Below, piece by piece: positions 8,885-13,289 of a stretch of 64,000 bases of DNA. Each line of letters begins with the position of its first letter. Position 1 is the first letter of the stretch. A program made the position numbers and the translations under genes. The DNA comes from Neptunitalea chrysea (GTDB taxonomy: Bacteria > Bacteroidota > Bacteroidia > Flavobacteriales > Flavobacteriaceae), in NCBI RefSeq assembly GCF_027924145.1, contig NZ_BRVP01000001.1, positions 124,001-188,000 on the forward strand, in the 5' to 3' direction. The notes beneath the pieces are model-generated. The model was not told the DNA's origin and did no database searches. It saw nothing but the letters and a program-made list of their open reading frames with translations.

Positions 8885-8986
8885 TTTACTAATTTAAAAA
8901 GGGAGGTATATTAAATAAACTGCTAAGATATAAATCTGTAAGGTTACTTTAAATATAATTAGCATCTTTATAACATAAGTAGAAAG

Positions 8987-9006
8987 AATACTTAGTAGTA
9001 AGTATT
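8987..9006. repeat. Inverted repeat upstream of the KAP NTPase gene
   Basis: The perfect eight-base arms AATACTTA and TAAGTATT flank a GTAG centre, 57 bases before the NTPase start. There is no T run, so it looks more like an operator than a terminator. The 179-base gap between the divergent ABC operon and the NTPase gene holds no other recognisable feature beyond a weak TAAATTTA box near 9028. Confidence 0.4.
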
Positions 9007-9063
9007 TTAATCGCATAAAAATTTGGTAAATTTATAGGCTATAACCACTATAATTACTCTACC

Positions 9064-12000
9064 ATGAAATCCTTTAGACCCAATGATTTATTTGAAGTAA
9101 AGCTAGGAGAGTCTACAAGGGGGTATGATGTTATTTTTGTACCTATAGACGGAAAAGGATCATTGGGGCAGTTGAATAGATTCGTGTTGAAATCTAAAGG
9201 ATTGAATGAATCTATAACTGGCCAACTTAATTTATTAAAAGGATTTGATGTTTATTCAGGGAAAGGTTTCTTAATTGTTTTTATTGTAACAATAGATTAT
9301 TCAAGGAACAACTTACCAATAGAATTATTAAAAATTAATTTACTTAATGCCTTAAAAGAATTAAGCGGTTTTATTATCAAAAAAAATATTTGGATTCCAT
9401 TAATGGGTACAGGTGTAGCTGGATTATCTTATTCTGAGAGTTATAAAATTCAATATGAGATTATAACGGATTATCAGTTGGATGTGCCTTTTAATGTAGT
9501 GTTTTCTATTCCAGATGATAGTGAAGGAGTAAAGCTATTTGAAGAGATGAATATGGCTACTAGTTTGGAATATTTGAAGGAAGATGATTTCATGAAGTTA
9601 GAAGCTTATATTTTAAAAAATAGTATTAAGTTCTATATAGTTGGGACTATCTGGGATCGTGGTGAAATGGCTGATGCTTTTTATAAAGAAGGGTATTGGG
9701 AAAATGGTTATGGAAGTAGTAATGAAAAGTTTGCTACGATAGTAGACAATGTAAAGCCGGGTGATTTTTTGGTGCATAAGTCGACCTATGCCAAAAAGGG
9801 AGATAGTATTTTAAGGATAAAAGGGTTTGGTGTGGTAACCCAAAATCCTAAAAATGGAACTAAATTAGAGGTAGATTGGTTAGTTAAAGACATTCAATTT
9901 GATGTATCAGGATTAGGGCATTATCGAGAAACGATTCAGGAAGCTAGTCTAGATCATGTAAACAAAATTATAAGTGGTATTACCGCTACTAGTGTTAGGG
10001 AGAATATAATTCATCAGATACAATCGTATCAACTTAAACCTACTACAGAAATTAGTACATGGCAAGAACAATTAGCCAATATTTCTTCAGATTCAGATAG
10101 AGGAGCTGATAGTTTAAATATAATGGAGGACGTAAAGGCTTTTGCTAGAGTTATTGCCGCAGATAGTTTTACGCCACCATTAGCAATAGCCCTTTTTGGA
10201 GAGTGGGGAAGCGGAAAGAGTTTTTTTATGAAACAATTGAAAGGGACCATTGAAGGGGTTTCTAATAATCCGAAAAAGGTGTACTGCACGGGCATTGCCC
10301 ATATAGAGTTTAATGCTTGGTCGTATATGGATGCCAATTTATGGGCTAGTTTAACCTCTAAAATATTTCAAGGACTCAATGCGTATATTAAAGATCATAG
10401 TGTAGATGATGAAGCAAAGAGGAAGATAGAAAAAAAGCTAACTAAAGATCTGAACATTACCAAGGTAGAGCTATTGCAACTAGAAGAGAAAGAGCAAGTT
10501 TTAAAGAGTGAACTAAAGGTATTAGATGATAAAAAAGTAAAGCTTGCCAGTGAATTGAAAGGGAAAATTAAGCAATTAAGAAGGAGTTCTGTGGTAGATG
10601 TTCTTGAGGGAGTAAAAAAACAATATAAGTACAAAGAAAAATTAGCGGAGCTTCAAAAACTTTCATCTAAGGATTTTGCGAATTTTGTCCCTGAAGATTA
10701 TCAGGATGATCCTGAGAAAGTGTATGAACATTTAAACACAATAACAACCTATATGCGAATGCTTTTTTCAATAAAGGATTGGTGGAAACATATTTTACTG
10801 ATCTTATTTATTGGGGGGGCTATCTATTTAGGACCTATGTTAGGAGAGCAATTGGATAAGATGAAAGTTCATCTATCGGATATCTTCATACAGATAGTGC
10901 CTGTTGCATCTATGGTATTAGCAAGATTGTATAAATTAAAAGAAAAATTTGATAGTTATATAGCTCCTTTTTGGAAACTTAAAAAAGAGTATAATGATAA
11001 AAAAGAAGCAGCTTTATATAAACTTGAACAATGGGAAAAGGCGCTAAAGTTTGAGATAGAGAAGAAAGAAAAGGAAATTCTATTAGTTGAAGGTAATGTT
11101 ATTGGGCATAAGAAGATACAATCTGAAATACAGTATAAAATAGAGCATGCATTATCAACTGAGGCGTTAATGAATTTTATAGATAAGCGTGCGGGAGGTT
11201 CTGATTATAAACAACATTTAGGTATTATTTCAACGGTACGTCAGGATTTGGAAACGTTAAATACTTTATTGGCAGGACATCGGGAAGAACAATCGGTTGC
11301 AGATAAAGAATTTAAAAAACTATTTAAAAATCAAAAAAGTTTACAGCGAATTATATTGTATGTGGATGATTTAGATAGGTGTCCTGAGCAAAAAGTAGTA
11401 GAGGTTTTGGAGGCTGTAAATCTTTTAATGGCCTACCCTTTATTTGTAGTAGTGGTTGGTGTAGACCCAAGGTGGGTAAAGAATGCATTGTATAAACAGC
11501 ATTTTGCTCAGTTTTCTCATGTAGAAGCAGATATAGGAATTATAGAGCCTTTGGAAGTTTCTAATTATTTAGAGAAAATATTTCAGGTACCATATAATCT
11601 TAAAAAACCAGAGGAGAAGGATATTAATACAATGATTTCAAATATCGCTAATGTTCAAGCTCTTCCTTTGCGTGAAGAAATAAATAAGGAAGATGGTATG
11701 CTAATAGGATATCAAGGGGAAAATGAACCTGAACGAGGTACACCTGAACCAAGTAAACCCGAGATCATTGTAGATACTAAGTCGGAAGAAGATTTAGTGA
11801 AAGAACTCATTCTTACAAAGAAAGAAGTAGAGAGTTTGCAATATTTCAGTGTCTTAATAGGAGGTAGTCCTAGGTTAGTAAAGAGGTATTTAAATGTTTA
11901 TCGTATTTTAAAAACGCATAAAGATTTGATTTATAAGGAAGAGGAGGGTGCTATTGATGACGCTTTATTGGTGTTGATTTTTATGTTGGCACTTTCTATA

Positions 12001-12222
12001 GGTCCCTATAAAAATAATCTGTCTTTGTTCAAAGAGGCGTTTGATAATGGAGATTTAAAAGATACAACCCTTCAAGAATTTCTTAAGACAGCCGAAGCCG
12101 AAGTTCTTCCTAAGGATATTAAAATACTTTTGGAAGGTAATGACCAAATAAAAGTCATTACCTTATCTGGTTTCAGCATAAATTATGAATTATTGAAGCG
12201 TTTTACCATAAACGGTTTTTAA
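9064..12222 (+). CDS. Macro-like / EVE-like / KAP P-loop NTPase, candidate defence protein
   Basis: A 1052-residue multidomain protein. Residues 1-165 look macro-domain-like (weak call), with WIPLMGTGVAGLS at 110-122. Residues 190-300 resemble the EVE/YTH-like module seen at the N terminus of some McrB-type ATPases: FYIVGTIWD, then YWENGY at 211-216, KPGDFLVHKSTY and a GFGVVT strand. A KAP-family NTPase follows, with Walker A GEWGSGKS at 379-386 and Walker B IILYVDDLDRCP near 763-774. Between them lie a coiled coil (about 435-510), two hydrophobic helices (about 577-594 and 607-625) and more coiled coil, the arrangement typical of KAP proteins. KAP includes PifA, the F-plasmid T7-exclusion protein. 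The gene is solitary among housekeeping genes. A defence role is inference; EVE domains can bind modified bases. Its stop overlaps the convergent neighbour by four bases. Confidence 0.82.
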   Translation: MKSFRPNDLFEVKLGESTRGYDVIFVPIDGKGSLGQLNRFVLKSKGLNESITGQLNLLKGFDVYSGKGFLIVFIVTIDYSRNNLPIELLKINLLNALKELSGFIIKKNIWIPLMGTGVAGLSYSESYKIQYEIITDYQLDVPFNVVFSIPDDSEGVKLFEEMNMATSLEYLKEDDFMKLEAYILKNSIKFYIVGTIWDRGEMADAFYKEGYWENGYGSSNEKFATIVDNVKPGDFLVHKSTYAKKGDSILRIKGFGVVTQNPKNGTKLEVDWLVKDIQFDVSGLGHYRETIQEASLDHVNKIISGITATSVRENIIHQIQSYQLKPTTEISTWQEQLANISSDSDRGADSLNIMEDVKAFARVIAADSFTPPLAIALFGEWGSGKSFFMKQLKGTIEGVSNNPKKVYCTGIAHIEFNAWSYMDANLWASLTSKIFQGLNAYIKDHSVDDEAKRKIEKKLTKDLNITKVELLQLEEKEQVLKSELKVLDDKKVKLASELKGKIKQLRRSSVVDVLEGVKKQYKYKEKLAELQKLSSKDFANFVPEDYQDDPEKVYEHLNTITTYMRMLFSIKDWWKHILLILFIGGAIYLGPMLGEQLDKMKVHLSDIFIQIVPVASMVLARLYKLKEKFDSYIAPFWKLKKEYNDKKEAALYKLEQWEKALKFEIEKKEKEILLVEGNVIGHKKIQSEIQYKIEHALSTEALMNFIDKRAGGSDYKQHLGIISTVRQDLETLNTLLAGHREEQSVADKEFKKLFKNQKSLQRIILYVDDLDRCPEQKVVEVLEAVNLLMAYPLFVVVVGVDPRWVKNALYKQHFAQFSHVEADIGIIEPLEVSNYLEKIFQVPYNLKKPEEKDINTMISNIANVQALPLREEINKEDGMLIGYQGENEPERGTPEPSKPEIIVDTKSEEDLVKELILTKKEVESLQYFSVLIGGSPRLVKRYLNVYRILKTHKDLIYKEEEGAIDDALLVLIFMLALSIGPYKNNLSLFKEAFDNGDLKDTTLQEFLKTAEAEVLPKDIKILLEGNDQIKVITLSGFSINYELLKRFTINGF

Positions 12223-13289
12223 ATCTTCACCTTATAAATGGTAAATTCCATATCGTTTATAGTGCCTTTTACCTCATTAATTCGGGAGTTGGTGTAATAC
12301 AAATAGCCGTTAAATATACTAAAGCTATCGGCCCATTTTACCTGTGCTCCGCTTAGTAAGGTTTTTAATTCACCTTTTGGAGTAAGATAATCTATCGCAT
12401 CTTTTTCTAAATTGGCTAAGTATAAGTTTCCTTGTTGGTCGAAAATCATTCCGTCTGGTGCTCCGGTTGTAGCTACTTTGGTAACACTTTTTTCTATACC
12501 TGTTTCCGAACCATTTATCAACGAGTCAACAGGTACCGAGAAAAGACTATACCCTGTAAGGGCGTGATAATAAAGCCTGTCGTTTTTTAAGGCAATACCG
12601 TCTGAATGTACTGTGCGTTTTTGTTTCTCTCCGTGGAAGGTAAGAAAATCGACTTCTGATGAGGTGGAAAAATGACCATCTAACACACGTTTACTTTCCT
12701 TGGTCTTTAAATTGTAAACCACCAAACCCGGTTGCGCACTATCGGTAAAATAGATCATGTTATTTTTAGTGTCTATTCGCAAATCGTTGATATATGATTT
12801 GGGTTTATAGCTACCCTCGGTAAGGATAAGGATATCACGAAGTGAATTGTTATGCAGGTTAAAAACAAAAACTCGCGGGGCGTCTATAACACTTTTAAAC
12901 AGCGGGTTTCTAGTGTCTAAAACATACAGCATACTGTCTTTAGCCACCACCGATTGAACCGCTACAAAGGTAGAATCTGATACGGGGTTTCCTATTTCCC
13001 AAGTATTCCATTCAGCGGATGGGTAGGGCTTTGGGATATCGTTTTCAAATACCTCTATAACTGAATTATTCACTCCTGTACGCCACCTTGGGAAGTTTGC
13101 GAAAATTCTACCGGCATCGGTAACCGTTACTCCGGTTACTTGTTGTCCTTTAAAATGCGCTATTTCAATGGCTGTAGTTACTGAATCAGCTATAGGTTTA
13201 CTAGTGGCTTTTTTCTCAGGTTTATCGCCACATGAGATAAGGCTAAAAATTCCTACAATAGCAAGAGTTATAAATTTTAGTTGGTACAT
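12219..13289 (-). CDS. Major royal jelly protein / Yellow-type beta-propeller lipoprotein
   Basis: About 356 residues from ATG 13289. This start puts a clean lipoprotein signal at the N terminus (LAIVGIFSLISC with the lipobox Cys near residue 20), whereas a start at 13334 would add 15 polar residues in front of it. The mature part shows repeated blade-like segments and the MRJP pattern: VTVTDAGRIFANFPRW near the start, RVFVFNLHNNSLRDI, IYFTDSAQPGLVVYN and a late PDGMIFDQQGNLYLA. Bacterial members are extracytoplasmic propellers related to gluconolactonase/SMP-30 folds, and the substrate is not known. It converges with the NTPase gene, sharing four bases at the stops. Confidence 0.8.
   Translation of the reverse strand: MYQLKFITLAIVGIFSLISCGDKPEKKATSKPIADSVTTAIEIAHFKGQQVTGVTVTDAGRIFANFPRWRTGVNNSVIEVFENDIPKPYPSAEWNTWEIGNPVSDSTFVAVQSVVAKDSMLYVLDTRNPLFKSVIDAPRVFVFNLHNNSLRDILILTEGSYKPKSYINDLRIDTKNNMIYFTDSAQPGLVVYNLKTKESKRVLDGHFSTSSEVDFLTFHGEKQKRTVHSDGIALKNDRLYYHALTGYSLFSVPVDSLINGSETGIEKSVTKVATTGAPDGMIFDQQGNLYLANLEKDAIDYLTPKGELKTLLSGAQVKWADSFSIFNGYLYYTNSRINEVKGTINDMEFTIYKVKI

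Follow-up and report, generated by a model that had tools for sequence, protein, structure and literature searches.

Within the window, by which we mean the whole 64,000-nucleotide stretch of Neptunitalea chrysea DNA that was analysed, an intact open reading frame at positions 9064-12222 of the forward strand starts with ATG and runs without interruption. The gene stands alone, as an earlier note on this DNA had described and as the open reading frames of the window bear out: two ABC exporter genes on the opposite strand lie on one side, and on the other is a convergent lipoprotein gene, the last 4 bp of which overlap the end of our gene. Neither a mobile element nor another defence gene adjoins it in the window. 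Its G+C content (32.9% vs 34.5%) does not indicate a foreign base composition. The features of the gene and its protein are as follows.

9064..12222, + strand: whole gene, macro-like / EVE-like / KAP NTPase, 1052 aa (open reading frame; family alignment A5)
8887..12225, no strand: segment missing from the same-genus genome G001 (blastn blocks end at 8886 and restart at 12226)
9064..9567, + strand: macro-fold domain, residues 1-168, with a conserved IWIPLMGTGVAGLS loop (AlphaFold2 model, VIA, Foldseek, family alignment A3)
9619..9978, + strand: EVE-superfamily-like domain, residues 186-305 (alignment A7; McrB N-termini; hhalign to an EVE profile)
10198..10221, + strand: Walker A motif GEWGSGKS, residues 379-386, including K385 (invariant core in alignment A5)
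10408..10584, + strand: long predicted helix, possibly a coiled coil, residues 449-507, within the NTPase (DSSP of the full-length model, moderate confidence)
10789..10923, + strand: predicted transmembrane hairpin, residues 576-620 (hydropathy)
11113..11910, + strand: C-terminal part of the KAP P-loop core, best Pfam stretch, residues 684-949 (PF07693, E 1.3e-25)
11347..11379, + strand: Walker B motif RIILYVDDLDR, residues 762-772, including D768/D769 (alignment A5, motif)

Domains of the protein

To describe the N-terminal part, we built an AlphaFold2 model of residues 1-328 on an alignment with 25 relatives, which reached a mean pLDDT of 90.5. The macro part of this predicted model matched macro domain 2 of PARP9 (VIA Z 17.0, rmsd 2.9 over 162 residues), macroH2A1.1 (VIA Z 16.6) and DarTG (VIA Z 15.5), and Foldseek matched it to macroH2A with an E of 1e-6. 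By sequence alone the resemblance is weak: in a Pfam search with the whole protein, Macro (PF01661) reached 12.2 bits (E 0.18), under its cut-off of 22. By predicted fold only, residues 1 to ~168-170 are clearly a divergent member of the macro superfamily, in agreement with the macro-like N-terminal domain proposed earlier. The loop WxPLMGTGxGG, which we take to be the second phosphate loop of macro domains, is kept across the family (alignment A3).

The following region, residues 186-305, forms a domain of its own that is homologous to the N-termini of McrB-type NTPases that have mcrC adjoining, and shares 33-36% identity with the McrB-linked copies. One of these, on a Paracoccus plasmid (L034), lies N-terminal to McrB with mcrC beside it, and two other loci (L029 and L030) encode an EVE-like-McrB protein with a McrC gene beside (PF10117, E 5e-64 and 1e-63). 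Across the 17 KAP- and McrB-linked sequences of alignment A7, five residues are invariant: W197, F206, W212, G256 and W272. W212 had been singled out in the earlier note as an EVE aromatic residue. Pfam EVE was not reported for the window protein and matched 1 of the 17 members, at E 0.062. When the EVE-like profile was aligned by hhalign to an EVE profile made from a diverse alignment of Pfam-EVE copies, the match had a probability of 86% (E 5e-6, score 38.5, 111 columns), while the control macro, KAP and reversed profiles all remained below 1%. After column shuffling, 197 of 200 profiles scored 18.8 or less and the remaining three were end artefacts of 12-16 columns. The diverse EVE alignment was needed for this match: a single EVE protein gave no match to the EVE-like profile, and a profile of housekeeping EVE copies only gave 12% over 25 columns, indicating that the signal stems from divergent EVE copies. 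Fold searches with both models placed macro domains alone among the top 50 matches, so that the fold comparison suggested for residues 1-300 confirmed the macro domain and returned nothing for the EVE-like part within those 50. On these profile comparisons we regard residues 186-305, with moderate confidence, as EVE-superfamily-like. Of the EVE/YTH-like domain read earlier from the motif YWENGY, the homology to McrB N-termini and the moderate EVE profile match stand, and a Pfam-level EVE assignment does not.

Residues 336-1052 constitute the KAP NTPase part, and KAP (PF07693, 90.7 bits vs a cut-off of 20) is the sole Pfam family above cut-off in the protein. The Walker motifs were located with family alignment A5, which contains 17 sequences, and the Walker A lysine K385 agrees with the earlier note. 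Between Walker A and Walker B lie two hydrophobic segments, residues 576-594 and 602-620, consistent with the two membrane helices proposed for this position. All 17 aligned proteins have a strong first segment (KD 1.9-3.3), and the weaker second segment falls under the threshold of 1.3 in about half of them. In the full-length model, confidence is low over the KAP part (mean pLDDT 69). Sequence searches of the PDB with the whole protein and with the macro and EVE-like profiles gave no significant match.

PADLOC matched the KAP core to both QatA and PifA, and membership of either was rejected. PifA is encoded by the F plasmid and acts in T7 exclusion; we know of no macro or EVE modules in it. 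The PifA match (E 8e-9, residues 723-860) is weak, its best stretch covering 123 of 720 profile positions within part of the KAP core, and the link to PifA drawn in the earlier note is therefore not borne out as membership. With QatA of qatABCD (PMC13279940) the protein shares a KAP NTPase core (PADLOC E 7e-16) and a link to defence. Its NCBIfam score is 72.6 bits vs an equivalog cut-off of 600 bits, and no qatB, qatC or qatD adjoins the window gene.

Relatives, interchangeable N-termini and an empty site

Among 397 family genomes, any match was found in 14 and the EVE plus KAP combination in only six. A whole-protein pattern scan of genome contigs, and of viral contigs, returned no relatives, whereas the macro alignment, scanned against 84,980 species, yielded 22 loci. 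In 12 of the 22, a macro domain, an EVE-like domain and this type of KAP occur together, giving at least 12 other Bacteroidota species that are scattered: Zobellia, Lutibacter, Leeuwenhoekiella, a Flammeovirgaceae bacterium, Chitinophaga, two Aquimarina, Flavobacterium, Roseivirga, an uncultured Flavobacteriaceae, Flavipsychrobacter and Pontibacter. The window copy sits on a long branch of the KAP tree (2.83 changes per column) with no firm place, suggesting that its function may have shifted.

The N-termini of the relatives are interchangeable. We found macro-KAP, macro-macro-KAP, macro-EVE-macro-KAP, EVE-EVE-KAP and, with an unassigned first domain, both domain-EVE-KAP and domain-EVE-macro-KAP. 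This variety bears on which module would act as the trigger. Four macro-KAP proteins lack a detected EVE-like domain (L055, L056, L059 and L062) and the EVE-like region scores weakly in two others (L057, E 4e-9; L044, E 5e-13), which speaks for a trigger through the macro domain only, as in TM-macro Thoeris. An ADP-ribose-derived signal would then be bound by the macro domain, and the EVE-like part would be a nucleic-acid tether or vestigial. ThsA, which has a macro domain and a membrane segment in one protein without a KAP NTPase, provides the precedent: its macro domains bind ADPR or IAD, leading to nucleotide-induced oligomers and clustering of the membrane domains (PMC11204291). However, EVE-KAP proteins without a macro domain are equally present (L021-L023), and a search with TIR_2 (PF13676) for a ThsB-type partner as the source of the signal gave no match in the genome at E 0.001, other signal enzymes being possible. 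We consider a macro-only trigger unlikely.

Several loci show other arrangements. In L021-L023, residues ~1-120 form another N-terminal domain in place of the macro domain, with no Pfam match. An alphaproteobacterial MAG (L063, 6950-10284) has a separate macro-like gene and a separate KAP gene, followed by a Tle1-like phospholipase gene (PF09994, E 1e-79), possibly a split version with a membrane-lipid effector. At L065 (6935-12956), a macro-like gene of 220 aa directly precedes a gene for a 1770-aa protein with DUF7379, lipase-like and CHAT protease domains, and here the macro module may be paired with another effector. On a Rhizobium plasmid (L035, 4690-10438), a KAP gene precedes genes for SIR2 and nucleoside 2-deoxyribosyltransferase, and the stop and start codons overlap.

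Comparison with the same-genus genome G001 revealed an empty site. The orthologues of the two flanking genes (76% and 70% identical) are adjacent there, 86 bp apart, indicating that a stretch the size of a gene was gained or lost while the surrounding region stayed collinear. Its presence is patchy. Conservation at this place in all relatives, which the earlier note had named as counting against a defence role, is thus not what we observed. Insertion of a prophage or large island was also considered and rejected, as no integrase lies beside the gene and the insertion is gene-sized. The ordinary flanking genes, and the lack of an adjoining mobile element or defence gene in the window, would suit a housekeeping or stress-signalling membrane NTPase with no tie to phages. 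Yet the gene is missing from G001 and from nearly all of the 397 family genomes, and its relatives are cargo of restriction-modification (R-M) operons in which others hold abortive-infection genes (see below), making a housekeeping role very improbable.

The position between hsdM and hsdS

In nine relatives (L048, L060, L051, L047, L058, L055, L056, L059 and L027), the gene has hsdM on one side and hsdS on the other, followed by hsdR. The nine operons are intact and represent one type I R-M lineage; in L048, Pfam identified the N6_Mtase/HsdM_N, Methylase_S and HsdR domains. From the hsdM stop to the KAP start there are -1 to 3 bp in 8 of the 9 operons, and L058 has two more small genes before hsdS. 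Partial hsdM genes remain at L052 and on plasmid L036. About half of the relatives have no R-M neighbour, nor does the window copy, which is flanked by the ABC exporter and lipoprotein genes and not by hsdM and hsdS. On the KAP tree, the operon and solitary states switch at least three times on supported branches. The proposal of a single-gene defence system therefore suits the solitary copy here but not the many relatives inside hsdM-x-hsdS-hsdR.

In order to find loci that had not been picked by their KAP gene, we searched the 397 family genomes with HsdM alone. HsdM of at least 69% identity was present in six genomes, each of which has additional genes in the hsdM-hsdS interval. In three of them the cargo includes KAP: macro-EVE-KAP in G426, X-EVE-macro-KAP in G237 and a PifA-like KAP in G043. 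The query HsdM came from G426, and the KAP search had already turned up G237, which leaves G043 as the independent KAP case. Equally independent of the KAP search is what the three remaining genomes carry: an AAA_15/AbiEii-like ATPase (G252), putAbiC with SIR2-TIR (G431, where hsdS lies beyond the genes listed) and RhuM-Fic (G328). At 14 further loci with HsdM of 43-47% identity, none had KAP in the slot. The presence of KAP, putAbiC, SIR2-TIR, AAA_15 and RhuM-Fic between hsdM and hsdS indicates a general defence-cargo slot.

The cargo coordinates are 6936-10943 of L144 (G431), 9278-11038 of L145 (G252) and 8696-10509 of L143 (G328), the last with a GIY-YIG-like gene beside RhuM-Fic in the slot. 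The PifA-like KAP of G043 (L075, 6417-9413; PADLOC E 4e-44) has N-terminal hydrophobic segments and lies between hsdM and hsdS.

The main rival to a sensor and effector reading of the protein is a guardian role like that of PrrC, in which the type I R-M complex would silence the KAP protein, and KAP would kill the cell once a phage anti-restriction protein disables R-M. Such a role is consistent with the identical operon position in nine relatives and the near-zero gaps, and it has precedents: the type I R-M enzyme linked to PrrC keeps it silent, and a phage anti-restriction factor activates it (PMC2610378), and RloF lies between hsdR and hsdS of a type I R-M operon (PMC11411939). However, the slot also holds unrelated cargo, and the type I R-M systems of the window's own genome are only ~25% identical to the HsdM of the host lineage. 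These unrelated systems, together with the solitary copies in the window and about half of the relatives, argue against dependence on the R-M complex, and we regard the guardian role as unlikely as well. The genome that contains the window has two type I R-M loci; in one of them (G000:C9 47000-64000, L072), hsdR is preceded by two DUF262-like genes and followed by an Mrr gene.

A candidate sensor and effector in one protein

Context gives good support to a defence role for the gene: its relatives occur as cargo in type I R-M operons, in the same place as abortive-infection genes. This places the possible defence function raised in the earlier note on independent grounds. The reading we favour, and which we think is probably correct, is that of an anti-phage gene in whose product the macro module, the EVE-like module or both sense infection and activate a KAP effector anchored in the membrane, as a complement to restriction. 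The hairpin inserted in the KAP NTPase would anchor the protein in the inner membrane. Modified (phage) DNA or RNA is the probable target of the EVE-like module, and an ADP-ribose-type nucleotide made or released in infection that of the macro module. Ligand binding would lead to NTP-driven oligomerisation of the KAP NTPase, which would then act at the membrane, so that the infected cell or the phage is stopped. Working alongside type I restriction, such a protein would be a second line against phages that escape it because their DNA is modified or otherwise protected, and the window copy would be a stand-alone mobile version. A further extension strikes us as rather speculative: the family could be combinatorial immune receptors that move in and out of the R-M slot, in which exchangeable sensor modules, whether macro, EVE-like, doubled copies of either or unassigned domains, are joined to a common membrane KAP engine, and the single polypeptide acts as a two-input gate, firing only when modified nucleic acid and an ADP-ribose-type signal are present together.

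Taken singly, defence proteins with KAP, sensors with macro domains and EVE readers are already known. Tmn, like our protein, is an anti-phage KAP NTPase with membrane segments, two in its case; it blocks several phages by an unknown mechanism, and no macro or EVE-like sensor is mentioned in its description, on which our comparison rests (PMC11846954). QatA, also a KAP protein, forms heptamers or octamers and binds to DNA (PMC13279940). Among the EVE architectures of defence systems, EVE-McrB is the commonest, and Bacteroidetes have it in abundance; the EVE census that reports this makes no mention of KAP (PMC7641849). In EVE-McrB/McrC type IV restriction, a homologous EVE-like domain likewise sits on the N-terminal side of a P-loop NTPase, whereas the putative reader of our protein is fused to a KAP NTPase and not to a McrB GTPase, and has no mcrC. 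TgvAB, like the relatives of our gene, is nested in a type I R-M operon, where it restricts phages with hypermodified DNA and complements the restriction of unmodified DNA; unlike the single KAP gene, it is a GmrSD-like system of two genes (PMC11411939). In the open-access literature, the scope of our search, there was no description of the KAP, EVE and macro fusion, its exchangeable N-terminus or its placement between hsdM and hsdS. The earlier note knew of no described system with this exact order; that agrees with our search, but the order itself recurs in at least 12 species.

The KAP NTPases PifA, Tmn and QatA act against phages. The family described here has its putative sensors, in recognisable form, on the same polypeptide as the KAP engine, so that trigger and effector can be tested within a single gene by exchanging domains or mutating individual residues. 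Additionally, the slot between hsdM and hsdS offers a simple rule for finding more defence genes in this R-M lineage.
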